Positions 462-20,380 of a DNA stretch of 20,380 nucleotides are shown piece after piece (within the stretch, counting starts at the first letter, position 1; the number at the start of each line of letters is the position of its first letter). Where the stretch lies: NCBI GenBank assembly GCA_905236895.1, contig CAJOQI010000075.1:1-20380 (forward strand), read 5' to 3'. This DNA comes from an uncultured Peptostreptococcaceae bacterium. Lineage in GTDB: Bacteria > Bacillota > Clostridia > Peptostreptococcales > Anaerovoracaceae. The position numbers and the translations under genes are program-made. The notes beneath the pieces are model-generated. The model was not told where the DNA came from. It worked only from the letters and a program-made list of their open reading frames with translations, and made no database searches.

Positions 462-491
462 AGGAGGTCGCGTTATGCGGCCTCCTTTTTT
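462..491 (+). terminator. Intrinsic terminator after tRNA-binding gene
   Basis: A 10-bp stem AGGAGGTCGC / GCGGCCTCCT (one G-U pair) with loop GTTAT is followed by six T. It separates the tRNA-binding gene from the toxin-antitoxin operon. Confidence 0.88.
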
Positions 492-503
492 GTCCTCCGT
501 CCA

Positions 504-532: not shown

Positions 533-538
533 ATATTC

Positions 539-2186: not shown

Positions 2187-2217
2187 CAGGGTAATGGCCT
2201 CTAATAAAAACTTTATT

Positions 2218-2255
2218 GACCGGTGACTTGAGGCAAGCACCGGTCTTTTATTTTC
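2218..2255 (+). terminator. Intrinsic terminator after HipA-like gene
   Basis: Arms GACCGGTG / CACCGGTC enclose a second 4-bp stem CTTG/CAAG with one bulged A, followed by a T-rich run TTTTATTTT. It closes the toxin-antitoxin operon just ahead of the iron operon promoter. Confidence 0.9.
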
Positions 2256-2265
2256 AAAAAAGTAA

Positions 2266-2294
2266 TTGACAACTTATAATAGTTAGGCTATACT
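2266..2294 (+). promoter_or_regulatory. Promoter of the feo / iron-uptake operon
   Basis: A perfect -35 TTGACA (2266-2271), a 17-bp spacer and -10 TATACT (2289-2294) predict a start near 2301. It is the only strong promoter seen for the following 17.5 kb of same-strand genes. A putative repressor site overlaps its -10. Confidence 0.85.
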
Positions 2295-2299
2295 AACTA
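2280..2299. promoter_or_regulatory. Iron-box-like operator 1 (GTTAG-N6-CTAAC)
   Basis: TAGTTAGGCTATACTAACTA has 7-bp inverted arms separated by 6 bp and covers the -10 box. The TTAG/CTAA core resembles operators of DtxR/IdeR-type metal-dependent repressors. Its place on the promoter of a ferrous-iron operon supports repression by a metal-loaded regulator. The regulator gene is not in the window. Confidence 0.75.
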
Positions 2300-2307
2300 A
2301 TCATAGG

Positions 2308-2325
2308 AGTTAGTTAAAACTAACT
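2308..2325. promoter_or_regulatory. Iron-box-like operator 2 (GTTAG-N6-CTAAC)
   Basis: AGTTAGTTAAAACTAACT has 8-bp perfect inverted arms with a 2-bp centre, and shares the GTTAG-N6-CTAAC core with operator 1. It sits just after the predicted transcription start. The two core centres are about 27 bp apart. Confidence 0.75.
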
Positions 2326-2418
2326 TACTAACGTGGAACAGGCCTTCCTTATCTGGTAATCATATTTTACAGAACAATAACCAAGCTGTTTCATGACATC
2401 TCTATATTTCATTTTGCG

Positions 2419-2443
2419 GCCTCGCTCCATTTTGGGGCGGGGC
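2419..2443 (+). promoter_or_regulatory. Hairpin in the feo leader, upstream of the feoA ribosome site
   Basis: A 10-bp stem GCCTCGCTCC / GGGGCGGGGC with G-U pairs and loop ATTTT lies 12 nt before the feoA Shine-Dalgarno sequence. It has no T run, so it is not a terminator. The rest of the roughly 165-nt leader (2301-2468) shows no riboswitch class I recognise. Confidence 0.5.
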
Positions 2444-2468
2444 AACTTACATATTGGAGGAAACTAGA

Positions 2469-2693
2469 ATGAAAACAATAACCGAATGTAAAGAGGGAGC
2501 AGAAATTAGAATTAGCAGGATTACGGGCGAGTTGCGATTTGTTAATCGTGCAGTATCAATCGGCCTGACGCCGGGCTCACGTGCAGAGATAATTAAGAAC
2601 AGAAAGAATAGACCTCTGCTTGTATATTCCAGGGATACTATGATTGCTCTTAATCACAGGGAATGTGAAAACATTTATGTAGAAGAGGTGTAA
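2469..2693 (+). CDS. feoA: FeoA, ferrous iron transport SH3-like protein
   Basis: A 74-residue FeoA-family protein with an SH3-like beta-barrel fold. FeoA is a small cytoplasmic partner of the FeoB iron permease and is thought to modulate its activity. The sequence begins MKTITECKEGAEIRISRITG and has the typical IGLTPGSRAEII turn around residues 32-43, then a run ending in ECENIYVEEV. ATG at 2469 is chosen over the in-frame TTG at 2454 because GGAGG lies at 2456-2460, giving 8-nt spacing; the TTG overlaps that site. FeoB starts 2 nt after the stop. Full length for the family. Confidence 0.92.
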   Translation: MKTITECKEGAEIRISRITGELRFVNRAVSIGLTPGSRAEIIKNRKNRPLLVYSRDTMIALNHRECENIYVEEV

Positions 2694-2695
2694 AA

Positions 2696-4615
2696 GTGGT
2701 AGATAAGAAAGTAACAGTAATCGCCTTGTTAGGGCAACCAAATTCCGGTAAGTCTACATTATTTAATGGACTGACTGGCCTCAGACAGAAGGTTGGGAAT
2801 TGGCCGGGAAAGACAGTTGAAAAGAGAGAGGGTAGCTTCACCCGAAATGGAAAAGAATACCTTGTTGTGGATCTTCCCGGTTCATATAGCCTTTCTGCCA
2901 ACTCCGATGAAGAGGTAATCACAAGGGACTATATCACATCAGGAAATGCTGATGTGATCTGTATTCTGGCAGATAGTTCACAGCTTGAGAGAAGTTTATA
3001 TATGGTGGCTGATTTTGCAGGGATTAAAGTCCCTTGTTTTTTAGTTCTAAACATGAAGGATGTTGCAGAGGAGCAGGGGAAAGCCATCAATCCCAAGATT
3101 ATTGAAGAAAAGTTGGGGGTTCCGACCATTTTGTTTTCTGCAACGGATAAAAAGAAATATGGGCAGCTTTATGAAGCTTTGGATAAAGCTTGCAGTGAGA
3201 AAACCATTCTTAAGTCAGAAAAGCTAGAGGAGAGAATGAATCAAATCGCTGCCGAAGAAGAGATAGAAAAAGATAATTCTACCGAATTACAGGGTGTGGC
3301 AACTGCGGGAACCAATAGAATTATTAAAGAAGGAGAAGCAAAGTTTGCTTGGATAGATGAACTTCTTGATGGAGCGGTTACATCCAAGCCCCGGAGTACA
3401 GGCCTTAGCAAACTGGACAGGATTTATACCCATAACTTTTGGGGTAAACCTGCGGTTGTTGGAACCATAATCCTTGGACTTATTCTATCATTTATTCCCG
3501 CACTTCCACTAATGGGCATTGGCTCTCTCATCGGTTACCTTCCTGCGCCAGCAGAAGAAGCTTTGCTTAATATGGGGTGTCCTGCTTTTATAGCAGCCTT
3601 CCTGACTGATGTCATCATAAGATCTCTCGGATTCATAGTGCAGATGCTGGGATTCGTCTTTGGTGTAACTTTAATATTCGGACTTCTGGAAGAGGTAGGA
3701 GTTATGGCTCGCATATCCTATGTCTTTGATAATACCATGGCCAAGCTTGGCCTTCAGGGAAAGTCTGTAATGCCTTTCCTGGTAAGCTTTGGTTGCACCA
3801 TGGGAGGAGCGGCAGGATCCAGGGTTATCGATAACTGGGGCCAAAAGGTACTTACCATCGCCCTTGCTTGGGCAGTGCCCTGTGGCGCAGCTTGGGCAAT
3901 CGTTCCAATGCTTTCCACTGTTTTCTTTGGTGCTTGGATGCCGGTGATAATAATCGCAATCCTACTTGTAATGCTTCTTCATATGTGGATTACAGCTAAA
4001 ATCTTTTCGCCATCTCTGGTAAAGAAGGAAGACAGAATTGGAATGATAATGGAGCTTCCTCCTTACCATAAACCCAAATGGGGAGCACTTTTAAGATATG
4101 TTTTCGGAAGAACCAAGGATACATTCTTTAGAGTTATTAAAGTCATCTTCCTGGTGGCATCAGTGTTCTGGCTTCTTTCATATTCCTTTGATGGAGGAGA
4201 TGTGACAGGAAGCATTCTGTATAAGATCGGACATGCAATCGAGCCGGTAACAAAGGTCTTTGGAATGGGATGGCAAACCTTTATGGCCTTCATTGCATCT
4301 TCCCTTGGAAAGGAAGGAGCAATAGGAGTTCTTGCAACCATATTCACGGGAGAGGGCAGCCTTTCCATTAGCGCACTTATGGGCGGCGCAAGGCCGGATA
4401 ACTTAAATGCTATTTTGACTTCCAATGTATCAAAGCCTGAGGCCCTTGCTCTGATTTTTGCCATGACATTTAACATGCCTTGCATCGTTGCTCTTGCGGC
4501 AACATATCAGGAAACCCACTCCGCCAAGTGGACTGCAAGGATTGCTATCTACTATACATTGACGGCTCTCATAATAGCGGGAATTGCATTTAGGGTTGGA
4601 ACCTTGATTTGGTAG
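2696..4615 (+). CDS. feoB: FeoB, ferrous iron permease with G domain
   Basis: A 639-residue inner-membrane Fe(II) transporter with a cytoplasmic GTPase domain. G1 is GQPNSGKST (13-21), followed by a GNWPGKTVEK G2 region, DLPG (59-62) and NMKD (119-122). A helical linker (about 165-240) leads to the membrane part from about 250, with two Gate regions. The conserved gate cysteines are kept: Cys367 in SFGCTMGG, Cys396 in VPCGAAW and Cys596 in NMPC. The surrounding gate-1 motif differs from the usual GFGCNVP...SCGARL, and the protein is shorter than E. coli FeoB (about 770). GTG at 2696 is the start, with an AGAAGAGG ribosome site. It is probably a functional but divergent FeoB; metal specificity cannot be read from sequence. 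Confidence 0.93.
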   Translation: MVDKKVTVIALLGQPNSGKSTLFNGLTGLRQKVGNWPGKTVEKREGSFTRNGKEYLVVDLPGSYSLSANSDEEVITRDYITSGNADVICILADSSQLERSLYMVADFAGIKVPCFLVLNMKDVAEEQGKAINPKIIEEKLGVPTILFSATDKKKYGQLYEALDKACSEKTILKSEKLEERMNQIAAEEEIEKDNSTELQGVATAGTNRIIKEGEAKFAWIDELLDGAVTSKPRSTGLSKLDRIYTHNFWGKPAVVGTIILGLILSFIPALPLMGIGSLIGYLPAPAEEALLNMGCPAFIAAFLTDVIIRSLGFIVQMLGFVFGVTLIFGLLEEVGVMARISYVFDNTMAKLGLQGKSVMPFLVSFGCTMGGAAGSRVIDNWGQKVLTIALAWAVPCGAAWAIVPMLSTVFFGAWMPVIIIAILLVMLLHMWITAKIFSPSLVKKEDRIGMIMELPPYHKPKWGALLRYVFGRTKDTFFRVIKVIFLVASVFWLLSYSFDGGDVTGSILYKIGHAIEPVTKVFGMGWQTFMAFIASSLGKEGAIGVLATIFTGEGSLSISALMGGARPDNLNAILTSNVSKPEALALIFAMTFNMPCIVALAATYQETHSAKWTARIAIYYTLTALIIAGIAFRVGTLIW

Positions 4616-4653
4616 CGGGCTTTAGGATAGGACATCCTGCTTAAGGAGAAGAA

Positions 4654-4980
4654 ATGGAAGAATTAATTGAACTATTAAAGGACGGCAAGTCCAGATCCCT
4701 TGAGATGCTGGCAGATGAGCTTAACCAGCCTGTAGAAAATATTAAGCGCAGCATCGAATTTTTAGAGAAGATGGGGATTATAAAAAAAGTTGATATGAAC
4801 ATAAATACAGGTGGATGCAATAGTTGCAGTGGATGCAGCGTAAAAAGCAAGGGGGCAGGGACTAATGAAAATGGCAGCAAAGATTCTCAGTCCAAGCCCC
4901 AGGCTGCATGCCAGGGTTGTATGCCTGAAGGAGGGTTTCAGAATATGGGAACCATCTGGGAGGTTAGCGAAAGGAAGTAA
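4654..4980 (+). CDS. FeoC-like winged-helix protein with Cys cluster
   Basis: A 108-residue protein placed right after feoB, where FeoC is normally found. Residues 1-50 form a winged-helix/HTH (SLEMLADELNQPVENIKRSIEFLEKMGII). The second half is flexible and rich in Cys, Gly and Ser: Cys55-x2-Cys58-x2-Cys61 and Cys86-x2-Cys89. FeoC proteins of enterobacteria use a Cys set to hold an oxygen-sensitive Fe-S cluster and protect or regulate FeoB. Five cysteines here could do the same, but the spacing differs and the two groups are 25 residues apart. ATG at 4654 has AAGGAG 8 nt upstream. An alternative is an unrelated small regulator with similar architecture. Confidence 0.8.
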   Translation: MEELIELLKDGKSRSLEMLADELNQPVENIKRSIEFLEKMGIIKKVDMNINTGGCNSCSGCSVKSKGAGTNENGSKDSQSKPQAACQGCMPEGGFQNMGTIWEVSERK

Positions 4981-4992
4981 GGAGGGGAAGAA

Positions 4993-5703
4993 ATGGGAGA
5001 AAAAGATTTCCTCGTTATAAGCGGACTGAAAAAGTCCTATGGAGAAGGTGAAAGCAAACAGGAGGTTCTGAAGGACCTGAATATATCTGTAAGCAAGGGA
5101 GAGTTTTGTGTGCTTCTTGGGCCATCAGGTTCGGGAAAGTCTACTTTGCTTAATATTATCGGAGGAATAGATAGCGCTGATGATGGGTTTGTTTCAATTA
5201 ATGGAGACAAGCTTAAGGACATGGATGACAAGGCCCTTACCCTTTACAGAAGGAAGCACCTTGGCTATGTTTTTCAGTTATATAATCTGATTCCCAATTT
5301 GAATGTTAAGGAGAATATTGAGGTTGGTGCATATCTATCGGATAAGCCTCTTGATATAGATGAGCTCCTTCATACTCTGGGCCTTTGGGATCATAGGCAT
5401 AAGCTACCCAACCAGCTTTCCGGCGGACAGCAGCAGAGAACGTCCATCGGAAGGGCCATAGTTAAGAACCCGGATATACTGCTTTGCGATGAACCAACGG
5501 GAGCCTTGGACTATAACACATCAAAAGAAATCCTGAAGCTTATAGAAGATGTGAATCAAAAATACGGAAACACAGTAATCATGGTTACCCATAATGGCGC
5601 TATTCAGGATATGGCTGACCATGTGATTAAACTAAGAGACGGCAAGGTTAGAAGCGATAGCTATAACGAGAATAAGATAAGCGCCGAAGCACTTGATTGG
5701 TAG
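4993..5703 (+). CDS. ABC transporter ATPase (MacB/LolD type)
   Basis: A 236-residue cytoplasmic ATPase that powers the permease encoded next. It has GPSGSGKST Walker A (43-51), Q-loop Gln95, the [11 protein letters not shown] stretch typical of the MacB/LolD/FtsE group, signature LSGGQ (142-146), Walker [10 protein letters not shown] (162-170) and His200. All catalytic residues are present. ATG at 4993 is preceded by AAGGAGGGG. The stop TAG abuts the permease start. MacB-type pairs act mechanically on substrates or lipoproteins on the outer face of the membrane rather than through a classic channel. The substrate is unknown; the setting suggests a link to iron or envelope stress. Confidence 0.92.
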
Positions 5704-8457
5704 GTGGTTAAGTTGAGAAGTCCGCTGAAAAAGAGAGTGCTGAGAGATCTAAAAAAAGACTGGATCAAATATCTGGTCTTGCTTGTTTTGATGTCATTTA
5801 TGATTGGACTCGCATCAGGCGTCTTTGTTGGAAATGACAGCATGATGGCCTCCATAGATGAGTCATACGAGAAATACAATATAGAAGATGGGCATTTTGA
5901 ATTAAAGGACAAGCCCACAAAGGAACTCCTGGATTATTTCCGTGAAGAGGTGAAAGTCTACCAACAATACTATAAAGACGCTACAGAAGAAATCGTCGGA
6001 AGAGATGACTACGATGGAAGCGCACGCATTTTTATTGTGAGAGATGAAGTGAACCTTCCTTGCATAATGGAAGGAAGGCTTCCGGAAAAGGATAAGGAAA
6101 TCGCCATCGATAGAGCCCACGGTGACAACAATAATATTGGCCCGGGAGACAAGCTAAAGATTGATGGAATAGATTATGAAATCGTTGGACTTGTAGCATC
6201 CTCCGATTACAGCTGCTTATTTAAAAACAATTCCGACATCATGTTCGATGCGGTTACCTTTGATATTGCATTCATGACGGAAGAAGGCTGGGACAGGGTT
6301 AAAGAAAACCCCAAATACCAGTATGCCTATAAATATGATGCACCACCAATTGACGATATCCAGGACAAGGAATGGTCCGACGAACTGGTGGAAAAACTTG
6401 CGGTAATTGCTGTAACCGGCGGCTATACATCCAGCAAAGACGAGGCGGAGGAATTAGAGGAAAACATAGATAACTGGACGGCTATCTTGGAGGAAGCAGA
6501 GGACTACGCAGATGATTTGAAAAAAAGGGGAGAAGCCCTTGAAGAAAGAGGAGAGGAACTAAAGGGAAGAGAAGAGGAGTTGATTGGAAGGCAGGCATAT
6601 CTCCAGGAAATGCAGGCACGAATCATGGCAGGAGACCCTGCTGCTCTTTCGGAAGCAGCAAACCTTCAGGCAGAAGGAGAAGCTCTTCAGAAGGATGCAG
6701 AGGCTCTTCAAAGCGATGCAGACAATCTGCAGAAGGAGGCGGATGCCCTCCAAGAAGAAGCGGATGAGTTTGCAAAAAGAGAAGATGAGCTTAATGAGCT
6801 GGTGGATAAGCTGGAAGCCCTGGAGCCTTACGAGGACAATATGAACGAGCTGGTGGACTTTGTCCCGGGATATGCAAACCAGTCAATTAAGTTTGCGGCC
6901 AACGACCTTGGCAAGGACCAGGCCATGATGAATGTGCTTGTATATATCTTTATCGCCGTGCTTGCCTTTGTTTTCGCCATAACCACAGGAAACAAAATCA
7001 GAGAAGAGGCGGCCATTATCGGAACCCTTAAGGCTACGGGATATACCAAAGGAGAACTTATAAGATTTTATATGTTGATTCCCGTGGTGATTACTTTAGT
7101 GGCTTCTGTAATCGGAAATATCTTGGGTTACACCTATTTTAAAGACGTTGCGGTTTCTCTCTATTACAACTCATATAGCTTGCTTAAGTTTGAAACTCTG
7201 TGGAATCCCAAAGCCTTTCTCATAACCACTTTGATCCCACTGGCTCTTATGGTGATAGTTAACTTCATAGTTATCAATAGGCTCCTTAGGCTATCTCCTA
7301 TGAAGTTCCTGCGCAGAGATTTAAGCACATCCAAGAAAAAGAAGGCGGCAAGGCTTCCGAGTTTTAAGTTTCTTAATCGCTTTAGACTCAGGATTCTAAT
7401 TCAGAATAGATTCGACTATCTAACTCTTTTCCTTGGAATCCTGTTCATAATGATACTCCTTGGATTCTCCATTGGTCTTCCGGAAACCATCGATAACTAC
7501 AAGGGCATAGTTACGGAAAATGTAATGGCGGATTATCAGACGGTTTTAAAGGATTATGAGAATGAGGACGGAAATATCATAGAAACCAAAACCGAAGGAG
7601 CGGAGAGATTCTCCACCACATCCCTCGTAACCATAGACGGAGTTAGGGAAGGAGAAAGTATATCAGTTTACGGTTATGAAGAAAATAGCAAGTATTTCTC
7701 TTTTGCTTCGTCGGTGGAACTGGTGGATGAACTTAAGCTGAGGGATAAGGAAGTATACATATCAACGCCTTTCCATGAGAAGTTCGGGTATGACACGGGG
7801 GACGAGATTACCCTAAAAGAAAAATACTCTCATAAGAAATATACCTTTGTTGTGAAAGGTGTTTACGAATTCCCGACGGGTCTTGCGGTGTTCATGCCAA
7901 ATGAAGCTTTTAACAAAACCTTTGATGAGGATGAAGGAGCTTTCAGCGGATATCTGTCTAACAAAGAAATTAAGGACATCGATGATGATCAAATATATAT
8001 GACTATCACCAAGGATGACATGATGAGCCTGGCCAGGCAACTGGACCACTCTATGGGAGGCTTTGCTGACTATATTTCCTGGGCATGCTTAATTATGGGC
8101 ATCCTGGTTATGTATCTTCTAACAAAGCTCATCATAGAAAAGAATGCGGTTTCCATTTCCATGGTTAAGGTTCTTGGTTATACCAACGGAGAAATAAACA
8201 GTCTATACATAAGGCTTACCACGGTGGTTACCATTATTCTGACAATCGTCGGTGCCCTTGCTAGCATTGTGCTTCTGGGCTATCTCTTCAAATTGGTTAT
8301 GTACGGTATGGAGGGATGGTTCGATCTCTTTATCAGCCCCCAGGGAGTTGTAAAGATGATACTTATAGTTCTGGCTGCATATATTGTCGTTTCATATTTG
8401 GACATGCGCCACATAAAGAAGATTCCTCTTACGGAAGCACTTAAAAATGTAGAGTAA
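5704..8457 (+). CDS. FtsX-type ABC permease with coiled-coil insert
   Basis: A 917-residue permease. A membrane helix at about 21-43 is followed by an outer domain (45-235), a long coiled coil (about 245-375), a first FtsX block of three helices (about 405-525), a second outer domain (about 590-770) and a second FtsX block (about 785-905). The coil contains seven-residue repeats of the kind LQKDAEALQ and LQKEADALQ around 321-352, rich in Leu, Gln, Glu and Ala. The layout matches Gram-positive members of the MacB/FtsX superfamily. GTG at 5704 follows the previous stop directly. TTG at 5713 has AGGTGG at 5702-5707, 5 nt before it, and is an equally good or better start. Its ATPase is the preceding gene. 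Confidence 0.9.
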   Translation: MVKLRSPLKKRVLRDLKKDWIKYLVLLVLMSFMIGLASGVFVGNDSMMASIDESYEKYNIEDGHFELKDKPTKELLDYFREEVKVYQQYYKDATEEIVGRDDYDGSARIFIVRDEVNLPCIMEGRLPEKDKEIAIDRAHGDNNNIGPGDKLKIDGIDYEIVGLVASSDYSCLFKNNSDIMFDAVTFDIAFMTEEGWDRVKENPKYQYAYKYDAPPIDDIQDKEWSDELVEKLAVIAVTGGYTSSKDEAEELEENIDNWTAILEEAEDYADDLKKRGEALEERGEELKGREEELIGRQAYLQEMQARIMAGDPAALSEAANLQAEGEALQKDAEALQSDADNLQKEADALQEEADEFAKREDELNELVDKLEALEPYEDNMNELVDFVPGYANQSIKFAANDLGKDQAMMNVLVYIFIAVLAFVFAITTGNKIREEAAIIGTLKATGYTKGELIRFYMLIPVVITLVASVIGNILGYTYFKDVAVSLYYNSYSLLKFETLWNPKAFLITTLIPLALMVIVNFIVINRLLRLSPMKFLRRDLSTSKKKKAARLPSFKFLNRFRLRILIQNRFDYLTLFLGILFIMILLGFSIGLPETIDNYKGIVTENVMADYQTVLKDYENEDGNIIETKTEGAERFSTTSLVTIDGVREGESISVYGYEENSKYFSFASSVELVDELKLRDKEVYISTPFHEKFGYDTGDEITLKEKYSHKKYTFVVKGVYEFPTGLAVFMPNEAFNKTFDEDEGAFSGYLSNKEIKDIDDDQIYMTITKDDMMSLARQLDHSMGGFADYISWACLIMGILVMYLLTKLIIEKNAVSISMVKVLGYTNGEINSLYIRLTTVVTIILTIVGALASIVLLGYLFKLVMYGMEGWFDLFISPQGVVKMILIVLAAYIVVSYLDMRHIKKIPLTEALKNVE

Positions 8458-8476
8458 TCGGAAAGGAGGCTGGGCT

Positions 8477-9058
8477 TTGCCTGAAGAATTGATTATTAAG
8501 CATTGCTCTCCAACGCTGGCCGGCCTAAAGTCCGGAAGCATGTTTTCTGTGACTTTTGATAGTGACGTAGAAATGGTGACGGCGCTGAAGGAAATGAATG
8601 GGATCTTAAAGGAAAAAGGGCTTAAGGCCATTCCTTTTAAGAAGAATGAAACAAGATATCTCATTTACATATATAGACCCTCCCATCTTATTGAGGAGTT
8701 AAAAACTCCGAGGGCCGAAGCGATACTAAAGTCGCTTGGATATGAAGTTGGCAATCTCCCTAAATGTCTATCGGAATTAGCGAGGAGAATAAAAGATGAT
8801 AAGGATTTTCCCCATGAAATAGGGTTGTTCCTCGGCTATCCACCGGAGGATGTTTCGGGATTTATAGACTATAAATGCGGAACAGGTGCCTGCGGTGGCG
8901 AGCCTAAATGCAATGGTTGCTGGAGAGTCTTTGGTGACAAAGAGACGGCAGAAAGAAAGTTTAATCAATATAAGAAATGCACCAGAGTTTATTCGGAGGT
9001 GTACAAACAAGGTAGATCCCTAGACAAGCTTATTGTTCCAAGCAAGGAGCAGGCTTAG
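8477..9058 (+). CDS. DUF3793 family protein with extra Cys cluster
   Basis: A 193-residue cytoplasmic protein matching the DUF3793 family of anaerobic Firmicutes. Family marks are HCSPTLAGLKSG (9-20), the YLIYIYRP strand (61-68), the FPHEIGLFLGYPPEDVSGFI block (111-130) and CWRVFGD followed by FNQYKKCTRVY. The function is unknown; in clostridia I recall these genes near flavodoxin and iron or ABC genes. An unusual cluster at 134-148 (CGTGACGGEPKCNGC) adds Cys134, 139, 145 and 148 where relatives, as I recall, have a short turn. This suggests metal or Fe-S binding. The start is TTG at 8477, with AGGAGG at 8464-8469 and 7-nt spacing; no ATG fits as well. Confidence 0.85.
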   Translation: MPEELIIKHCSPTLAGLKSGSMFSVTFDSDVEMVTALKEMNGILKEKGLKAIPFKKNETRYLIYIYRPSHLIEELKTPRAEAILKSLGYEVGNLPKCLSELARRIKDDKDFPHEIGLFLGYPPEDVSGFIDYKCGTGACGGEPKCNGCWRVFGDKETAERKFNQYKKCTRVYSEVYKQGRSLDKLIVPSKEQA

Positions 9059-9100
9059 GCTTAGGATTAAATAAACAGTTTTTTATAGGAGGAAAAAATA

Positions 9101-9523
9101 ATGAGTAAAGTAGCAGTAGTATTTTGGAGTGGAACAGGTAACACCAAGATGATGGCAGATGCAGTAGCTGAAGGTGCAAAGGGAGCCGGTGCTGAGGTTT
9201 CTATCCTTGGTCCATCTGAATTCAATGCGGATATGGTCGCTGAATTTGATGCTATCGCTTTTGGTTGCCCGGCAATGGGAGCAGAGGTTCTGGAAGAAAA
9301 CGAGTATGAGCCAATGTTTACAGATGTTGAGGCCGTTTTAAGCGGAAAGAAAATTGCTCTCTTTGGTGCCTATGGCTGGGGAGATGGTCAGTGGATGAGA
9401 GATTGGGAAGACCGCTGCAAGGCTGCAGGTGCAAAGCTTGCAACAGAAAGCGTTATGTCCAATGAGACTCCAACAGACGCTGTTCTTTCAGAATGCAAAT
9501 CATTGGGAGGCATGCTGGCATAG
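9101..9523 (+). CDS. Flavodoxin
   Basis: A 140-residue short-chain flavodoxin, a soluble FMN electron carrier. The phosphate-binding loop is SGTGNTKMM (10-18). The GCPAMGAEVLEE segment (about 57-68) supplies the first isoalloxazine loop, and GAYGWGDGQWM (about 89-99) the second, with Trp and aromatic residues near the flavin. It is full length for the short-chain class. ATAGGAGG lies 8-10 nt before ATG 9101. Flavodoxins replace ferredoxin under iron limitation, which fits an iron-repressed operon. Here one could also supply electrons for ferric reduction or for opening an imported ligand (inference). Confidence 0.93.
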   Translation: MSKVAVVFWSGTGNTKMMADAVAEGAKGAGAEVSILGPSEFNADMVAEFDAIAFGCPAMGAEVLEENEYEPMFTDVEAVLSGKKIALFGAYGWGDGQWMRDWEDRCKAAGAKLATESVMSNETPTDAVLSECKSLGGMLA

Positions 9524-9547
9524 CAGTAGTTAAACAGGTAAACCAAT

Positions 9548-13049: not shown

Positions 13050-13099
13050 ATAAACTCGTATAGACAAATAAAAGAAATGCAAAAAGGAGAAAGACAAAA

Positions 13100-13690
13100 A
13101 TGGAAAAGAAAAAACTAACAGCTAAGGATTTCATTACAGTTGGAATATTCACTGCAATCATATTTGTGTTGGAGTTCGCCTGCGGCATGCTGGGCTTCAT
13201 TCACCCTTATATTGTTGCATCATATGTAATCTTGATTCCAATAGTTGGAGCTATACCGATGATGCTCTTTTATACCAAGGTAGAAAAGTTCGGGATGATA
13301 ACCATAATGTCCATATTAATTGCCATCATCATGTTTGTAACGGGAGTGGGATATCTTGGTGCACCACTTATTATCATTGCGGGCATCGTTGCTGATTTGA
13401 TTGCAAAATCAGGGGGATATAAGAGCTTCAAGAAAACCGTAATAAGCTATGGCATATTCTGCCTGTGGATCTGCGCCAATTATTTCCCGGTAATAGTCAC
13501 CGCAGAATCCTATAGAAAGGATTTGCTGGCAGGAGGCTTCTCTTCAGAGTACTGCGATAGCCTTTTTGCGGCTATTAATTCCAAAACTATAGTTGTACTT
13601 CTTATACTTTGCTTTGTGTTCGGATGCATTGGAGCATATATAGGTAAGGCTGTAGTGAAGAAGCATTTTGAAAAAGCAGGGATAGTATAA
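13100..13690 (+). CDS. ECF transporter S component (MptD/Trep_Strep type)
   Basis: A 196-residue membrane protein with about six helices, starting KKKLTAKDFITVGIFTAI, a hallmark opening of the Trep_Strep (MptD-like) family of putative ECF substrate-binding subunits. S components capture the ligand and dock on an EcfT plus ATPase module, and both follow immediately. Helices lie near 13-33, 36-57, 66-85, 87-103, 113-131 and 165-185. ATG 13100 has AAAAAGGAG 10 nt upstream. The stop directly abuts the EcfT ATG. The ligand of this S family is not assigned with certainty; as I recall, neighbours in streptococci are haem or siderophore loci. Confidence 0.85.
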   Translation: MEKKKLTAKDFITVGIFTAIIFVLEFACGMLGFIHPYIVASYVILIPIVGAIPMMLFYTKVEKFGMITIMSILIAIIMFVTGVGYLGAPLIIIAGIVADLIAKSGGYKSFKKTVISYGIFCLWICANYFPVIVTAESYRKDLLAGGFSSEYCDSLFAAINSKTIVVLLILCFVFGCIGAYIGKAVVKKHFEKAGIV

Positions 13691-14392
13691 ATGAGTCGTA
13701 GGCTGGATCCAAGAACCAAACTTTATATGGTATTTATCGTATCGGCCATCGTCATGATGACAGCCACAACGCCCTTCCTATGGGCAGTGAGAATTGTAAT
13801 GACGATGGTTCCGATACTTCTTCTTGTAATTGAAAAACGATATGCAAGCGCATTTCGTTTTTTTGCTTTGTATATTGTGGCTCTTGCGTTGACATTTTTT
13901 TATTTGTCCGAGGAATCCACCGGGGTGTTTGAAGCAATTCTTACGGGATACTGCGGAATCATAGCGCAGTTTCTTCCGGCTATGATTACCGCCTGGTATA
14001 TGATCAGAACGACCAAGATCAACGAGTTCATGTCTGCAATGCAGAAACTTAGGGTGCCGGACGGAATTGGAATCTCCCTGGCAGTAGTGATGCGTTTTTT
14101 TCCAACAATCAAAGAAGAATATGCCTCAATCAGAGACGCCATGAGAATGAGAGCCCTCACCTTTGGAAGGGGGAACATAGTTAGGATGGTGGAGTATCGC
14201 ATGATACCACTTTTGTTTTCCTGCGTAAACATAGGTGACGAGCTCTCTGCGGCAGCTCTTACAAGAGGGCTTGGCGGCAAAGTAAAGAGAACCAGTGTGG
14301 TTGAACTACGGTTCGGCGTGATGGACTATTTACTTATGCTCTTTTTTACGGTGGCAACGGTCATCTTTATTGGCTTTAAGTATTTTAAATAA
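13691..14392 (+). CDS. ECF transporter T component (EcfT)
   Basis: A 233-residue membrane coupling subunit with five or six helices. EcfT proteins carry two X-Arg-X motifs on cytoplasmic coupling helices that fit into the grooves of the ATPases. Here they are MRA in RDAMRMRALTF (about 149-159) and TRG in SAAALTRGLGGK (about 187-198). The opening MSRRLDPRTKLYMVFIVS is also typical. ATG 13691 follows the S-component stop with no gap. It is shorter than the common EcfT (about 265), as in dedicated group I ECF systems that have their own S and A genes. Confidence 0.88.
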   Translation: MSRRLDPRTKLYMVFIVSAIVMMTATTPFLWAVRIVMTMVPILLLVIEKRYASAFRFFALYIVALALTFFYLSEESTGVFEAILTGYCGIIAQFLPAMITAWYMIRTTKINEFMSAMQKLRVPDGIGISLAVVMRFFPTIKEEYASIRDAMRMRALTFGRGNIVRMVEYRMIPLLFSCVNIGDELSAAALTRGLGGKVKRTSVVELRFGVMDYLLMLFFTVATVIFIGFKYFK

Positions 14393-14411
14393 TCTGCAGT
14401 GGACGTGATTG

Positions 14412-15911
14412 ATGAACAGCATTATAGAAATAAAAAACGTAAGTTTTAAATATAAAGGTTCAAACGAAAGCTTGTTGGATAATGTGTCCCTTTCGGTTAA
14501 TCAAGGAGAGACACTTCTTCTTTGCGGTCCATCGGGATCCGGAAAGACCACTATTATCAGGCTTATTAATGGACTAATACCTCATTATTACCAGGGTGAG
14601 ATTTCCGGTGAGGTAGAGGTACTTGGAAGGAATATAAAAGAGACCGAACTTTATGACTTGGCGGGAATTGTTGGTACCGTATTTCAGAACCCCAGGAGTC
14701 AGTTCTTTTCTGTTGATACAGATGGAGAAATTGTTTTTGGACCTGAGAACATTGGCTTGGACCCAAAGGTAATAAAAGAAAGGTCAAATCATGTAGTTTC
14801 TGAAATGAAGCTCGAGAAACTTCTTGGCAGAAGTCTCTTTGAATTGTCCGGAGGGGAGAAACAAAAAATTGCTTGCGCATCAGTCTCCGCCCTTCTTCCG
14901 GATATTATCCTACTTGATGAACCTTCATCAAACTTGGATTGGAGTGCAATAGCGGATTTAAGGGAAAGCATCGAAAGATGGAAGAGTCAAGGGAAAACCA
15001 TCGTTATATCTGAACATAGATTGTGGTATCTTGCCGGATTAATTGACCGAGTTATATATATGGACGAGGGCAATATAAAGAGTGAGTGGAGAGGCGAAGA
15101 GTTTGAATCCTTTGATGAAGACACCATAAAAGACCTTAAGTTAAGACCCACCATGCTTGAAGAAAGATTGATAAATAGTTTTAGTGATGCTAACCATCCT
15201 CCATTTGAAAGTGATTCATTGGGGGGATATGAGCTTAAGGATTTTTACTTTGCCTATAAAGAAAAACCATATATATTTCGAAAGAAGTCTTTCTCGCAGG
15301 CGGACGGTGATTTGCTGGATTTAAACATACCTGAGCTGGTGCTGCCTTCGCAAAGCATAATTGGAATCATTGGAGAAAACGGAGCGGGGAAATCAACTTT
15401 CTTAAGATGTTTATGTGGCTTGGAAAATGACTGCGGGGGAGTCGTCATCAAAGAGGGCAAAGAGTACGCAGGCAAGAAAAGATTGTCCTTAAGTTATATG
15501 GTTATGCAGGATGTTAATCATCAGCTGTTTACGGATAGTGTGAAAGCTGAGGTTCTTCTTTCCATGAAAGAAGAGAATGAAGAGCGTTGCTATGAGATTT
15601 TGGATAGCCTGGGAATTCTGGAGTTAAAGGATAAACACCCCATGGCGCTTTCCGGCGGCCAAAAGCAGCGTGTAGCCATTGCATCCGCCTTGGCGGCGGA
15701 GGCAGATCTTATTCTCCTTGATGAACCAACATCGGGACTGGACTATTCTCACATGGTGAAGGTCGCAAAGCTTTTGCAGAAACTTGCGGAGGATGGAAAG
15801 ACGGTGCTGGTTTCCACCCACGACCCTGAGCTAATAGAAATATGCTGCACTCATGTGCTTAGGCTGGAAAAAGGTAAGGGTGAGATCTTCGAAATGGGAG
15901 TAAGAGATTAA
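14412..15911 (+). CDS. ECF transporter fused double ATPase (EcfA-EcfA')
   Basis: A 499-residue protein holding two ABC ATPase domains in one chain, replacing separate EcfA1 and EcfA2. Domain 1 (about 1-230) has Walker A GPSGSGKTT (about 39-47), LSGGEKQK (about 145), IILLDEPSSNLD (about 164) and ISEHR. Domain 2 (about 275-499) has GENGAGKST (about 320-328), LSGGQKQR (about 413), LILLDEPTSGLD (about 434) and VSTHD. Both domains keep all active residues. ATG 14412 is preferred to the TTG directly before it; the ribosome site is weak (AGTGGA), so coupling to EcfT is likely. The methyltransferase remnant starts 1 nt after the stop. Confidence 0.9.
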   Translation: MNSIIEIKNVSFKYKGSNESLLDNVSLSVNQGETLLLCGPSGSGKTTIIRLINGLIPHYYQGEISGEVEVLGRNIKETELYDLAGIVGTVFQNPRSQFFSVDTDGEIVFGPENIGLDPKVIKERSNHVVSEMKLEKLLGRSLFELSGGEKQKIACASVSALLPDIILLDEPSSNLDWSAIADLRESIERWKSQGKTIVISEHRLWYLAGLIDRVIYMDEGNIKSEWRGEEFESFDEDTIKDLKLRPTMLEERLINSFSDANHPPFESDSLGGYELKDFYFAYKEKPYIFRKKSFSQADGDLLDLNIPELVLPSQSIIGIIGENGAGKSTFLRCLCGLENDCGGVVIKEGKEYAGKKRLSLSYMVMQDVNHQLFTDSVKAEVLLSMKEENEERCYEILDSLGILELKDKHPMALSGGQKQRVAIASALAAEADLILLDEPTSGLDYSHMVKVAKLLQKLAEDGKTVLVSTHDPELIEICCTHVLRLEKGKGEIFEMGVRD

Positions 15912-15912
15912 T

Positions 15913-16164
15913 ATGTACTGGGATAGAGTCGCAAAGTTTTATGATCTCTTCGAAGGGATTCTTAACAGAAAGGTTTATGAAGAAACAGGAAGGCGTGTTG
16001 CTGAGGAAATCGATTCCGGCGACATAGTATTGGAGTGCGCCTGCGGCACCGGAGCAATAAGTAAATACATTGCAGCAAAGTGTGAGCATCTTACTGCCAC
16101 GGACTTTTCAGGGAAGATGCTTCAGCAGACCGGGCGGAAACTTCAAGCTTGGAGAGCAAATTGA
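15913..16164 (+). pseudogene. Truncated class I SAM methyltransferase
   Basis: An 83-residue frame that begins like a full class I methyltransferase (MYWDRVAKFYDLFEG) and contains the SAM-binding motif I LECACGTGAIS (about 39-49) and the acidic-loop strand LTATDFSGKML (about 59-69), then ends abruptly. Intact relatives are about 200 residues; motifs for the rest of the Rossmann fold are missing. The next gene starts only 23 nt later, so the 3' two-thirds are absent and not merely frameshifted. An internal deletion is likely. The remaining piece cannot form a complete SAM fold. It sits exactly between the ECF and second ABC genes, so the intact gene was probably part of the pathway. Confidence 0.75.
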
Positions 16165-16187
16165 TTTACCAATAGGAGAGTGACTGA

Positions 16188-17918
16188 ATGTTTGACAAAC
16201 GGCTGATGGAAATGTGTCCGGAAAGCAAAAAATATATTGCGGGGAATATCATTCTTCAATTTTTGGAGCTCTGTTTAAATGTGGTGATGATTATAGCCAT
16301 AGCTTTTTCCGTGGAGAAACTATATGAAAGGCGCTGGGGAGTAGCGGATTTAAGTCTTCCCTTTGTTATCATATTAATCACTGTATTCCTTAGATTCTTT
16401 ACAACCAAATACGCTCTTAGGATGAGCTATCTGGCATCACGCACCGTTAAGCGTGTAATGAGGGAGAAGATATATGCCAAGCTTCTTCACCTGGGGACTT
16501 CATATAGAGAGCATATTACAACGGCGGAGCTTGTTCAGGAATCGGTGGAAGGTGTGGATCAGCTTGAAAGCTATTTCGGTCAGTATGTTCCCCAATTCTT
16601 TTACGCCTTTATGGCGCCCATTGCGTTGTTTTTCCTCTTTGGCTTTGGTGGAAGCTGGAGGGTAGCGGCGGTTCTTTTAATATGCGTTCCTCTAATCCCA
16701 GGAGCCATCATCATGGTCCAAAAAATCGCGAAGAAGATTCTGGCCAAATACTGGGGGAGATATACCCAACTCGGTAGCACCTTCCTGGAAAATCTTCAGG
16801 GAATGACAACCCTAAAAATCTATCAGGCCGACGAACAAAAGAACATAGAAATGAATCAGGAATCCGAGGAGTTTCGCAAGATCACCATGGCGGTCCTAAC
16901 CATGCAGCTAAACTCCATTACCATTATGGACTTTGTTGCCTATGGTGGAGCAGCCCTTGGGATTCTCCTTGCAACAAAGGGATTCATATCAGGAGAAATG
17001 GGACTTGCCAATGTGATTTTTATGATTCTTCTTTCTGCGGAATTCTTTCTTCCAATGCGAAGGCTGGGAAGCTATTTTCACGTTGCCATGAACGGAATGT
17101 CGGCAAGCGACAAGATTTTTAAATTCCTGTCAGAAGATGAGTCCGAAGCGAAAAGGGAAACAGCTTTCGGTGGTGACATCGAAATCAAAAACCTGCACTT
17201 CTCTTACGAAGAAGGCCGCGAGATTCTGAAAGATATCAATATGTCCATTCCCAAGGGCAGCTTCATTGGAATAGTCGGAGAATCCGGTAGTGGAAAGTCT
17301 ACGATCGCTTCTTTAATCACATCCAGGAATAGAGTAGGAAAGGGAAGCATCACAATCGGAGGAAAGAATATAAATAACATCAGCGAAGAAAGCTTGATGA
17401 AGTCCGTAACATATATTGGCTTCGGCTCGGTTTTCTTTAAAGGCACGGTTAGAGAGAATCTTTTGCTGGCGGATCCGGTGGCTTCTGACGAAAGGCTTTG
17501 GCAGGTTCTTTCGGACTCTGCTTTGGCAGGCTTCTTTAAAGGAGAAAAGGGACTGGATACTTTCCTCCTGGAGAGTGCCTCGAATCTTTCCGGCGGTCAA
17601 AGGCAGCGCCTTGCCTTGGCTCGGGGAATCCTTCACGATTCGCCCATTTACATTTTTGATGAGGCAACAAGCAACATCGACATTGAAAGTGAAGAAACAA
17701 TACTAAAACAGATACAGATTATTGCCGCAGAAAAGACGGTGATAATGATTTCCCATAGGCTGGCCAATGTGAGAAACGCCGACCGGATTTATGTTATGGA
17801 GTCCGGCGCTGTCGTGGAAGAAGGCACCCATGAAGAACTACTTTCCGCCGGAGGGACCTATGCGCACCTCTGGGAAACCCAGGCCGCCCTTGAAAACTAC
17901 GGAAGGGAGGGCAGATAA
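16188..17918 (+). CDS. CydD-like ABC transporter half with altered Q-loop
   Basis: A 576-residue fused membrane/ATPase half-transporter. The segment TTAELVQESVEGVDQLESYF and FGQYVPQFFYAFMAPI (about 107-146) is close to CydD of the CydDC family. ATPase marks are GESGSGKST (about 364-372), LSGGQRQR (about 467), IYIFDEAT (about 486) and ISHR (about 522). The Q-loop is unusual: where most have Y-V-x-Q, this reads YIGFGSVFFKG, so the Gln that contacts Mg and the membrane domain is missing. The partner gene follows with no gap. ATG 16188 has AGGAG 9-10 nt upstream. CydDC of E. coli has been described as a thiol exporter and more recently as a haem transporter, which suits the iron setting. Confidence 0.88.
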   Translation: MFDKRLMEMCPESKKYIAGNIILQFLELCLNVVMIIAIAFSVEKLYERRWGVADLSLPFVIILITVFLRFFTTKYALRMSYLASRTVKRVMREKIYAKLLHLGTSYREHITTAELVQESVEGVDQLESYFGQYVPQFFYAFMAPIALFFLFGFGGSWRVAAVLLICVPLIPGAIIMVQKIAKKILAKYWGRYTQLGSTFLENLQGMTTLKIYQADEQKNIEMNQESEEFRKITMAVLTMQLNSITIMDFVAYGGAALGILLATKGFISGEMGLANVIFMILLSAEFFLPMRRLGSYFHVAMNGMSASDKIFKFLSEDESEAKRETAFGGDIEIKNLHFSYEEGREILKDINMSIPKGSFIGIVGESGSGKSTIASLITSRNRVGKGSITIGGKNINNISEESLMKSVTYIGFGSVFFKGTVRENLLLADPVASDERLWQVLSDSALAGFFKGEKGLDTFLLESASNLSGGQRQRLALARGILHDSPIYIFDEATSNIDIESEETILKQIQIIAAEKTVIMISHRLANVRNADRIYVMESGAVVEEGTHEELLSAGGTYAHLWETQAALENYGREGR

Positions 17919-19577
17919 ATGAAAAACCAAAGTAAGGCAAAAATCCTCTTCCGAATGCTTGAGCTGGTAAAACCACTAAGCGGATTTATGATCTTTGCTA
18001 TTCTCATGGGTACAGCAGGATTCTTGTGCGCTCAGTTCATTCCCATCCTGGGAGGATATGCAGTGCTCTATGGACTAGGCATAGATATACCAATTTCGCT
18101 AACTATTATCTGGACAGTGCTAATCGTAATCGCTCTTCTTCGGGCCGTGCTAAAGTTCGCTGAGCAAAGAACCAATCACTATATTGCCTTTACCTTGCTG
18201 GCAATTATAAGGGATAAAGTATTCAAGGCCCTTAGAAGGCTTTGTCCTGCCAAACTTGAGGGAAGAGATAAGGGTGATCTTATTTCTCTCATAACATCCG
18301 ATGTGGAGCTTCTGGAAGTCTTTTATGCTCATACGGTTTCGCCAATTTGCATTGCATTTTTGGTAGAACTAATCATGGTTGTTTTTATTGGGTCCTTCCA
18401 TTGGAGCCTTGGGTTATTGGCGCTCGCTGCGTTTATATCTGTCGGAGTAATTCTGCCTCTAATAATATCAAAGCGAAGCGGAACCCTTGGGGACGAGCTT
18501 CGCCGGGATAATGGCGAGCTTAGTGCCTACATGCTTGAAAACATCCGCGGCCTGGATGAAACCATTCAATACGCCGCAGGGAGTAAACGGCTAAAGGGTC
18601 TCACAGATAAGACTAATGAACTATCAAAGAAGCAAGGGAACCTCAATAAGCTTATGGGGGTCAACATGGCTCTTGCCAATAGCATTATTCTCTTCTTTGA
18701 TATTGCAATGCTGGCCCTGGCAGCCGCGCTTTATGCCGGCGGGAAGGTGGACTTTGATGGATTAGTTATTCCTTTGATAGCACTGATGTCATCCTTTGGA
18801 CCGGTGACAGCCCTGGCCAATCTGGGAACAACCCTTCAGGCAACAGTCGCATCCGGAGCAAGAGTCCTGGCTGTCATAGACGAGGAGCCAGAGACAGAGG
18901 ATGTGATAGGAAAGGAAGAAGTTGCTTTCTCCGGTGCGGCATTGGAGAGTGTTCGTTTTTCCTACGGCGGAGAAGCTGTTCTTAAAGGCACCTCTGTCAG
19001 CTTTCCGGAGAATCGAATTGTTGGAATTGTGGGGAAGAGCGGATGCGGAAAATCAACTATGTTAAAGCTTCTTATGAGGTTCTGGCGAGCTACCGAAGGA
19101 AGGGCATCCATCTCCGGAGTTAGCGTAGATGAAATCAATACTGCAAACCTTAGGAAGATGGAAAGCTATATGACCCAGGAAACTCAGCTCTTCAAGGACA
19201 CCGTTTCCGGGAATATTCGCATTGCCAAGCAAGATGCCACTAAGGAGGAAATAGAGGAGGCATGCAGGAAGGCTTCCATACACGATTTTATCATGACCCT
19301 ACCCAAGGGTTATGACACAGAGGTAGGGGAACTTGGAGAGACCCTCTCAGGAGGTGAAAGGCAAAGGCTTGGCCTTGCCAGGGCATTTCTCCACGATGCT
19401 CCCTTTATGCTTTTGGATGAACCCACCAGCAATTTAGACAGTCTCAATGAGGCGGTGATTTTAAAATCACTGAAGGAAGAAGCAAAGGGAAAAACTATTG
19501 CACTAGTTTCCCATAGAAAATCCACGGCTCGGATTGCAGATGAATTAATAGAAATGAAAAATGGAAAGATGTCATGA
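17919..19577 (+). CDS. CydC-like ABC transporter half
   Basis: A 552-residue half-transporter, the probable partner of the preceding CydD-like subunit. The membrane domain has LRRLCPAKLEGRDKGDLISL and ITSDVELLEVFYAHTVSPI (about 106-145), a CydC-like pattern. ATPase marks are Walker A GKSGCGKST (about 371-379), Q-loop MTQE, LSGGERQR (about 477), FMLLDEPTSNLD (about 496) and VSHR (about 530). Here the Q-loop Gln is present, so the pair would have one normal and one altered coupling site. ATG 17919 directly follows the previous TAA, with GGGAGGGC as ribosome site inside the upstream gene. Confidence 0.88.
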   Translation: MKNQSKAKILFRMLELVKPLSGFMIFAILMGTAGFLCAQFIPILGGYAVLYGLGIDIPISLTIIWTVLIVIALLRAVLKFAEQRTNHYIAFTLLAIIRDKVFKALRRLCPAKLEGRDKGDLISLITSDVELLEVFYAHTVSPICIAFLVELIMVVFIGSFHWSLGLLALAAFISVGVILPLIISKRSGTLGDELRRDNGELSAYMLENIRGLDETIQYAAGSKRLKGLTDKTNELSKKQGNLNKLMGVNMALANSIILFFDIAMLALAAALYAGGKVDFDGLVIPLIALMSSFGPVTALANLGTTLQATVASGARVLAVIDEEPETEDVIGKEEVAFSGAALESVRFSYGGEAVLKGTSVSFPENRIVGIVGKSGCGKSTMLKLLMRFWRATEGRASISGVSVDEINTANLRKMESYMTQETQLFKDTVSGNIRIAKQDATKEEIEEACRKASIHDFIMTLPKGYDTEVGELGETLSGGERQRLGLARAFLHDAPFMLLDEPTSNLDSLNEAVILKSLKEEAKGKTIALVSHRKSTARIADELIEMKNGKMS

Positions 19578-19618
19578 AACATGTTCAAACAAGCGTGTAC
19601 AGAAAGGACGGAGAATTT

Positions 19619-20011
19619 ATGAACATGAAAAGAATCGTTTTTGCAGCACTTGGACTAATATGTTTTGGACTTGGCACGGTAGGTGTCTTCCTGCCGATAC
19701 TTCCAACCACACCATTTTATTTACTTACTTTATTCTTCTTTGCCAATAGCTCGGAAAAACTCCACACCTGGTTTCTCGGAACCAATCTCTACAAGAAGCA
19801 TCTTGATTCCTTTGTTAAAAAGCGGGGAATGCTTCTATCTACCAAAATATCAATTATCGCCACTGTTACTTTGTTGATGTGCTTCGGCATCTTTATGATG
19901 GGGCGAAAAGGCATATGGATTCCCTGCATTATCCTTGGGGTGGTGTGGCTCTTCCATATCCTCTACTTTGCTTTACGTGTAAAGACAATTTCAGAAGAGG
20001 AGATAGATTAA
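19619..20011 (+). CDS. YbaN family (DUF454) inner-membrane protein
   Basis: A 130-residue membrane protein of the YbaN/DUF454 family. It starts MKRIVFAALGLICFGLGTVGVFLPILPTTPFYLL, carrying the family signature LPTTPF, then FFANSSEKLHTWF, and two more helices (about 75-115). The function is unknown; in many bacteria, as I recall, it lies beside haem or siderophore transport genes. ATG 19619 is chosen because the E. coli protein aligns from there and AAAGGA with GGAG precedes it. An in-frame ATG at 19574 overlaps the upstream stop (ATGA) and would add 15 residues; translational coupling from there cannot be excluded. It is the last gene of the operon. Confidence 0.88.
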   Translation: MNMKRIVFAALGLICFGLGTVGVFLPILPTTPFYLLTLFFFANSSEKLHTWFLGTNLYKKHLDSFVKKRGMLLSTKISIIATVTLLMCFGIFMMGRKGIWIPCIILGVVWLFHILYFALRVKTISEEEID

Positions 20012-20170: not shown

Positions 20171-20179
20171 GGACACAAG

Positions 20180-20195
20180 GTTAGAGGCGGCTAAC
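20180..20195. promoter_or_regulatory. Iron-box-like operator 3 (GTTAG-N6-CTAAC)
   Basis: GTTAGAGGCGGCTAAC has the same 5-bp arms and 6-bp spacing as the two sites at the feo promoter. It lies about 30 bp upstream of the hydrolase start. No clear -35/-10 pair could be fixed around it. Confidence 0.5.
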
Positions 20196-20226
20196 AAATA
20201 CTATATAGAATTGGAGGATGTCCACT

Positions 20227-20380
20227 ATGAAGAAACAGGTATTCAGAGTTGGTTCAGATGGTTTTAACGGGGCGTGGTATCCGGCTCCCGGCTGGAGCAG
20301 CAGAGGACTTATCATCATGCTCGGCGACAGCTCGGAGGATCGCATGGCCAAGACCGGGGCGAAATGGCTGAATGAACAGG
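20227..20380 (+). CDS. Alpha/beta hydrolase, N-terminal part (runs off window)
   Basis: The first 51 codons of a gene that continues past the window edge. ATG 20227 has GGAGGA 8-9 nt upstream. The segment LIIMLGDSSEDRMAKTGAKWL (from about residue 30) resembles the first strand and turn of acyl-CoA thioester hydrolase/BAAT-like or dienelactone-hydrolase-like alpha/beta hydrolases in Lachnospiraceae. The nucleophile and the other triad residues lie beyond the window, so activity cannot be judged. The putative iron box upstream suggests it may share the regulation of the preceding operon; an esterase that opens a siderophore is one possibility, a general hydrolase another. Confidence 0.6.
   Translation, partial: MKKQVFRVGSDGFNGAWYPAPGWSSRGLIIMLGDSSEDRMAKTGAKWLNEQ

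Follow-up and report, generated by a model that had tools for sequence, protein, structure and literature searches.

A candidate iron-starvation operon joining Feo to an equibactin/sia-like transport cassette behind EqbA-type boxes

Contig CAJOQI010000075.1 of an uncultured Peptostreptococcaceae bacterium (assembly GCA_905236895.1, 1.37 Mb) contains, within the 20,380-nt stretch analysed here (the window), a block of 16 plus-strand frames (2469-20011), comprising 15 full-length genes and one 83-aa methyltransferase fragment. In order, these encode FeoA/B/C-like proteins, a MacB-FtsX pair, a DUF3793 protein, a flavodoxin, a YbtP/IrtA-like ATP-binding cassette (ABC) pair, the S, T and double-ATPase (AA) components of an energy-coupling factor (ECF) transporter, the methyltransferase fragment, a CydDC-like pair and YbaN. 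In our reading, this is probably an iron-starvation operon for the uptake of Fe(II) and of a ferric chelate, either a siderophore or haem, and its repressor would be a small DtxR-family protein of the EqbA type that depends on Fe(II). The locus resembles the equibactin and sia iron transport loci in a new version joined to Feo; what it adds is how widely the EqbA-type box is used, together with a leader RNA. Gaps between genes do not exceed 50 bp (the largest lies between irtB and S), and two neighbouring pairs overlap. An earlier, sequence-only description of this DNA (the original prediction) had counted fifteen packed single-strand frames; the genes, their strand and their tight spacing stand, and the number of frames rises to 16 with the 83-aa fragment.

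Results and discussion

Promoter, boxes and the candidate repressor

A sigma-70-type promoter, TTGACA-17-TATACT (2266..2294, plus strand, 11 of 12 matches), precedes the block and ranks in the top two of the promoter-like sites within window positions 1-20000. Pattern scanning places box 1, AGTTAGGCTATACTAACT, over its -10 (2281..2298) and box 2, AGTTAGTTAAAACTAACT, just behind it (2308..2325). Each is an 18-bp palindrome, and no other sequence in the assembly matches AGTTAG-N6-CTAACT exactly. The iron-box promoter of the original prediction is thus borne out by two palindromes, and its stated block start, 2266, falls on the -35 box. A third exact core, GTTAGAGGCGGCTAAC (box 3, 20179..20196; core 20180-20195), lies past the block end in front of the next, alpha/beta-hydrolase-like gene, whose homologue in the congeneric genome G003 is also preceded by a box; since this core precedes the next gene, the regulated unit plausibly stops at ybaN.

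The core GTTAG-N6-CTAAC is also carried by the operator of Streptococcus equi EqbA, AACTATTATTGTTAGATGTATCTAACAATAATAGTT, and the suggestion of iron control made in the original prediction is supported to this extent. According to the accessible part of the source paper (PMC3672683), EqbA binds its own operator in dependence on Fe2+ or Zn2+, and more weakly with Mn2+; the protein lacks an SH3-like domain, its site was termed unlike other iron boxes, and its metal site has Asn in place of the Met of DtxR and a Cys in common with DtxR.

The only DtxR-type gene detected in the assembly lies behind a second feo operon. This operon (contig C133, locus L155, 4866-7879, the same strand throughout) consists of a TTGACA-16-TATAAT promoter with a two-mismatch box (C133:4902), feoA2, feoB2 and then dtxR (L155:7517-7879). 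The encoded protein has 120 aa, with an Asn aligned to MntR Asp8 and a Cys aligned to MntR Glu99; among 12 aligned proteins the Cys is invariant and the Asn variable. These are the residues reported for the corresponding EqbA positions, in a match that runs via MntR rather than a direct alignment and in which DtxR Met10 is taken to correspond to MntR Asp8. We infer that this protein binds the boxes.

In the mechanism that we propose, iron-loaded DtxR would occupy both boxes, one covering the -10 and one directly behind it, and so shut the promoter; when iron is absent the repressor would leave, and one long mRNA, or a few, would be made. FeoAB would then import Fe(II), while the YbtP/IrtA-like pair and the ECF S-T-AA set would take in a ferric chelate (siderophore or haem) from neighbours or host. 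Flavodoxin replaces ferredoxin in low iron, and here the flavodoxin and the DUF3793 protein may act as low-iron redox partners. MacB-FtsX, a recurrent member of the predicted regulon, is a putative transporter to which we assign no cargo.

Recurrence of the box in relatives

Relatives of the S component were collected from named genomes, and the best 80 of 118 confirmed loci were analysed. By record title these include Oscillospiraceae, Lachnospiraceae, Ruminococcus and Butyrivibrio, among others, and the rumen is a frequent source. At up to one mismatch, 139 boxes occur in 57 of these 80 loci, as against two in shuffled loci, which keep base content only. The boxes recur before the same genes in other genera: within 250 bp downstream lie irtA of the window's kind (32), S (23), DUF3793 (17), other irtA-like genes (10), macA (10), fld (2), a methyltransferase gene (1) and feoA (1), a tally in which a single box may count for two genes and in which 44 boxes have no mapped gene. 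Where at least 400 bp of upstream sequence was available, the first gene has a box no more than 1 kb upstream in 35 of 69 cassettes (0.3 in shuffles). A separate scan found TTGACA immediately before 15 of 142 boxes, so that the box occupies the promoter spacer.

Boxes also precede dtxR itself, at up to two mismatches and within 200 bp in 5 of 12 dtxR genes from eight named genomes. The 80 loci contain eight dtxR genes, of which three have such a box within 300 bp; one of the three also belongs to the former set. Among Trep_Strep systems of the same order, 12 boxes were found in 20 loci, and in other Trep_Strep subtypes of that order a box stands directly before the transport genes in 6 of 19. 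Across these Clostridia the EqbA core is a common box of iron genes, and offers a handle for listing iron regulons in little-studied bacteria.

Further afield, the mobilizable Corynebacterium plasmid NZ_CP068167.1 (locus L242, 8138-14528) carries the same five gene kinds as S-T-AA-ABC-ABC, with an S component 32% identical. They are preceded by TTAGGTAAGCCTTACCTTT, which differs at four positions from the box pattern used here and at one from what we take to be the degenerate corynebacterial DtxR consensus.

Identity and substrate of the transporters

The irtA-like half-transporter (9548..11320, plus strand, as are all genes of the block) finds its best half-size Protein Data Bank (PDB) chains in YbtP (6p6i, 301 bits) and IrtA (274), ahead of Sav1866 (232) and MsbA (231); two-domain eukaryotic exporters reach higher summed scores. 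Its irtB-like partner (11307..13049) was assigned from family profiles and PDB chain comparison. The S component (13100..13690) belongs to the Trep_Strep/MptD family (PF09605; TIGR02185 at 147.6 bits, cut-off 76.45) and has an S-component-like structure model. Beside it lie a T component (13691..14392, PF02361) and a fused double ATPase (AA, 14409..15911) with two ABC_tran stretches and TIGR01166 above its cut-off, which together make up a recognisable ECF transporter.

For the substrate of the ECF set we favour a ferric chelate (siderophore or haem), by analogy with the eqbHIJ/sia arrangement and with LhaSTA, an ECF transporter able to import haem (PMC7299338, in part). In S. equi, eqbHIJ are required for most equibactin-dependent 55Fe uptake, and the accessible text of that paper terms them an ABC or ferric-siderophore-like importer (PMC3672683); we infer that they are of ECF type. 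In the available portions of two further reports, an equibactin-like cluster of Clostridioides difficile contains an ECF-annotated gene (PMC6814731) and a similar cluster of Staphylococcus lugdunensis reportedly includes an ECF importer (PMC12709192). Ten recurrent neighbour families of the 80 loci were scanned and none was a nonribosomal peptide synthetase (NRPS), and it seems, therefore, more likely that the chelate comes from other organisms than that it is made by the cell. A role in ferric chelate import is suggested for the common, uncharacterised Trep_Strep/MptD ECF family and its exporter-fold partners.

Probable modular assembly of the operon

The ABC pair and ECF set are a reused cassette. 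T is adjacent to S in all 80 loci and AA in 78; some irtA- or irtB-like gene is found in 68, and irtB (at least 50% identity) lies directly upstream in 41. A feoB-like gene is near 17 of the 80 cassettes, DUF3793 near 17 and either near 28, rising to 20 of the 37 cassettes flanked by 9 kb or more on each side. In seven of the 17 loci with a feoB-like gene the match is below 40% identity only, and excluding them leaves 23 of 80 and 17 of 37. Genes of the window used as negative controls (tRNA-binding, Xre, HipA-like) are near none of the 80. Judged by the condition that would have refuted the original prediction, ECF/ABC blocks found mostly away from iron genes, the outcome is close to half; a box, on the other hand, stands before 35 of 69 cassettes.

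Congeners hold the parts in other combinations, and for this reason the operon looks like a stack of modules behind a single boxed promoter. In a genus DNA comparison the closest genome to the window was G011, whose locus reads box-macA-ftsX-fld-irtA-irtB-S-T-AA, with feo and DUF3793 not beside it. In G006, macA-ftsX is preceded by two boxes and the leader RNA element (see below), while in G007 box-DUF3793-fld goes together with another kind of ABC pair. The idea of one combined functional machine, put forward in the original prediction, is not supported: many cassettes lack feo, the G011 cassette lacks adjacent feo and DUF3793, and cydD is near one of the 80 cassettes and ybaN near none.

The end of the block was apparently added later, and only its position ties it to iron. 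The methyltransferase fragment (15913..16164) matches PF13649 profile positions 1-43 of 97 and has 83 residues, as opposed to the 206 aa of a homologue after AA in locus L046; this would fit a scar of recombination at the point of attachment of the CydDC-like unit. The CydD-like half-transporter (16188..17918) has CydD (7zd5) as its best half-size PDB chain, and the CydC-like one (17919..19577) has Sav1866, with no CydC among the best 60 PDB chains listed. The pair is named CydDC-like only, since both curated cut-offs are missed (TIGR02857, 374 vs 435 bits; TIGR02868, 305.7 vs 329.05 bits). YbaN, a DUF454 membrane protein (19574..20011, PF04304), closes the block.

Several neighbours of related cassettes deserve mention. 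An alpha/beta-hydrolase fragment follows AA in G011 (L219, 626-907, PF07859); this gene and the one behind box 3 are possible siderophore esterases. A histidine-phosphatase-family cluster (representative L099, 1057-1806) occurs in 15 loci, directly before the cassette in seven, and an enolase cluster (representative L105, 14130-15428) recurs near iron cassettes in 11, which places glycolysis-type genes in an iron neighbourhood. In L129, a goat rumen assembly labelled Spirochaetaceae, a cassette with an S component 73% identical lies beside feoABC, through either cross-phylum transfer or a binning error.

Weighing the alternatives

Several observations weigh against the proposed iron operon or its control. 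In the organism's own genome, boxes at up to two mismatches, C133:4902 and box 3 among them, show no excess (13, against 40 for a reversed-pattern control), and a Fur protein is also encoded. Among the relatives, 34 of 69 cassettes have no box within 1 kb upstream; only one box lies within 250 bp of a feoA, and the 18-bp box (up to two mismatches) is present in one of seven feoA upstream regions, which leads us to place feo mostly outside the boxed set in the 80 loci. The irtB-like protein shows no importer preference (Sav1866 261 vs YbtP 255 bits), and in S. equi the iron-toxicity phenotype persists when the IrtAB-like pair is deleted (PMC3672683, partial text). As for Fur, a scan of the related loci at up to three mismatches gave no box in 40 irtA, 7 feoA and 81 S upstream regions, and shuffled sequences likewise gave none. 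The 19-bp consensus employed in that scan is the one we presume for Fur.

It could be argued that the ECF set and ABC pair have a cargo other than iron (a vitamin, cobalt, manganese or a peptide), and that they only share the iron control or came along with the iron genes. Vitamins are the usual cargo of ECF transporters, the family models of Trep_Strep proteins name no substrate, and feoB or DUF3793 is found in none of the 19 loci of other subtypes. We consider such a cargo unlikely, given the boxes directly before cassettes in many genera, the sia-like gene order, the requirement for eqbHIJ in the use of siderophore iron (PMC3672683, in part) and the low CbiQ score of the T component (35.8, against a cut-off of 111.8). 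The box might otherwise be the operator of a TetR-type gene, as palindromic operators fit TetR, and a TetR-type cluster (one representative scanned) occurs in 32 loci and directly before the cassette in 11 of 80, a count that also tells against control by DtxR. This is very improbable, for the boxes are likewise present in front of DUF3793, macA, several dtxR genes and the feo operons of the genome itself, and the available EqbA text has that protein binding the same core (PMC3672683). Possible, if somewhat doubtful, is a division into two or three transcription units, in which the boxed unit stops at AA and other promoters serve the methyltransferase fragment, the CydDC-like pair and YbaN. 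G004 and G008 have cydD-cydC-ybaN in 15-kb stretches devoid of iron genes and of boxes (up to one mismatch), the hydrolase fragment takes the place after AA in G011, and the rarity of cydD and ybaN near cassettes points the same way; against a division stand the gaps of 1 bp (AA to methyltransferase) and 23 bp (methyltransferase to cydD), and the lack of a terminator-like site between the genes in a scan of the window limited to hairpin loops of 3-8. An iron-starvation operon for Fe(II) and a ferric chelate remains our preferred interpretation.

The leader RNA element

The leader before feoA (2326..2468, plus strand, by sequence reading) contains a conserved element, TTTCATGACATCTCTATATTTCATTTTGC followed by a GC hairpin (2389..2443, plus strand, from a genus alignment). 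Genus-wide DNA comparison gave short repeated matches to window positions 2387-2428 at unrelated places. The leader fold (2300-2468, box 2 included) is more stable than shuffled sequences (z -4.87), as is one copy of the element in G007 (z -3.15). An RNA model trained on nine copies from seven genomes detects the element in 10 of 13 genus genomes, three of them outside the training set (weakest E 2.9e-5); the 336 other genomes of the family yielded two matches, both weak and inside or overlapping frames. No earlier description of the element was found in Rfam or open-licence papers.

Upstream of 9 of 12 copies we find TTGACA, a -10-like hexamer and a box (up to two mismatches). All 12 have a hairpin of 8-13 pairs, poorly placed in G001, and CTTCC occurs near the 5' end in 5 of 9. 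A T-rich tail (at least 6 T in 12) is present in four copies, and the genes that follow these are varied: a peptidoglycan-binding protein (G007), a histidine kinase (G009a), macA (G009b) and a DUF134/FeMo-Co-type gene (G005). The gene after the G001 copy encodes a SpoIIE-type protein. The leader element is therefore a candidate for an iron-regulated small RNA, serving as the operon leader or read through into it. More tentatively, as a reading slightly less likely than not, we propose an undescribed small RNA family of the genus, made when an EqbA-type DtxR leaves the promoter and composed of a box promoter, a CUUCC-like stretch, the UUUCAUGACAUCUCUAUAUUUCAUUUUGC core and a terminator hairpin, which would spare iron in the manner of RyhB or FsrA and would have been captured here as a feo leader. 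It is also quite possible that we are dealing with no more than a cis-acting leader, or with a repeat peculiar to the genus. The window and G006 copies have no T-run, with a ribosome-binding site and gene directly behind, and three of the 12 copies lack the box promoter, one of them 3' of fld. A mere leader or repeat is harder to reconcile with the four tailed copies before varied genes, with a 21-nt core that is identical in six copies (1-5 differences in the other six), and with hairpin arms that differ yet still pair. If the small RNA reading is true, one promoter would yield both importers and an iron-sparing RNA; if it exists in free form, this group would have an iron-sparing RNA controlled through a DtxR-type box.

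Some copies have unusual surroundings. Core copies with the hairpin and no box lie in L218 (5776-5801) and L234 (4946-5016), the former just 3' of the flavodoxin gene and resembling a 3'-end-derived RNA. In G008 and G004 (L235 and L236, around 4500-5000) the element sits between two boxes, directly before DUF3793-flavodoxin. The gene after the G005 copy (L208, 7955-8719) encodes a DUF134 plus FeMo-Co-type protein of a metal-linked family, and a link to the RNA is possible.

Remaining genes and flanks

The Feo system was identified from FeoB (2696..4615; TIGR00437 at 368 bits, above the equivalog cut-off of 315.65) and its partner FeoA (2469..2693, PF04023). The longest feoA frame opens at TTG 2454, and the most likely start is ATG 2469, with GGAGG in front. 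A FeoC-like winged-helix protein with a Cys-rich tail (4654..4980) reaches PF09012 at its cut-off (21 bits). It is followed by a MacB/LolD-type ABC ATPase (4993..5703, family profile match), an FtsX/MacB-type permease with a coiled coil (5704..8457; PF02687, PF12704), the DUF3793 protein (8477..9058; PF12672, E 8e-52) and the flavodoxin (9101..9523; TIGR01753 at 133 bits, cut-off 123). Structure comparison of the DUF3793 model (predicted local distance difference test score, pLDDT, of 90) gave no clear PDB match.

Just upstream of the operon lies a HipBA-like pair, in which an Xre-type regulator (455-967) overlaps a HipA_C-like protein (933-2186) that scores below the PF07804 cut-off (26.2 bits). 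This unit ends in a terminator-like hairpin and T-run (2218..2255, plus strand), identified by sequence reading and outside the loop sizes of the terminator scan. Downstream, the start of the alpha/beta-hydrolase-like gene (20227..20380, plus strand) runs off the contig end. Its 51 encoded residues have no Pfam match, and its class was judged by eye from a GASTTG motif in the homologous 108-aa frame behind the G003 box (L239).

Comparison with known systems

The candidate leader RNA resembles the iron-sparing small RNAs IsrR and FsrA in its iron-box promoter, a predicted short RNA with an end hairpin and a pyrimidine-rich stretch (PMC9410917, as far as that text was available). It differs in that no sequence kinship was seen and that a DtxR-type box replaces Fur. 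Among transporters, LhaSTA of S. lugdunensis is likewise an iron-repressed, ECF-type S-T-A system for iron acquisition; unlike the system of the window, it lies within isd, has Fur sites and is haem-specific, and the accessible text mentions no IrtAB-like pair (PMC7299338).

The likeness to the sia and equibactin loci drawn in the original prediction is supported by the siaD-H gene order, the role of eqbHIJ and the EqbA operator core, as given in the available parts of the two source papers. In Streptococcus pyogenes, the ABC-ABC-S-T-A order of siaD-E (ABC), F (S), G (T) and H (A) is that of irtA-irtB-S-T-AA in the window, and the sia operon is iron-repressed under MtsR, a DtxR-family protein (PMC6593403, in part). 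Sia differs in having shr, shp and siaABC for haem uptake, none of which was detected in family scans of the window. The equibactin locus of S. equi shares with the system described here a small DtxR protein lacking an SH3-like domain (encoded here on C133, outside the window), an operator core of GTTAG-N6-CTAAC, and an importer set (in S. equi the three genes eqbHIJ, needed for most of the iron uptake) beside an IrtAB/YbtPQ-like pair (eqbKL), as described in the accessible sections of PMC3672683. Unlike that locus, the window has no NRPS, and adds Feo, MacB-FtsX, DUF3793 and a flavodoxin to the shared transport set.

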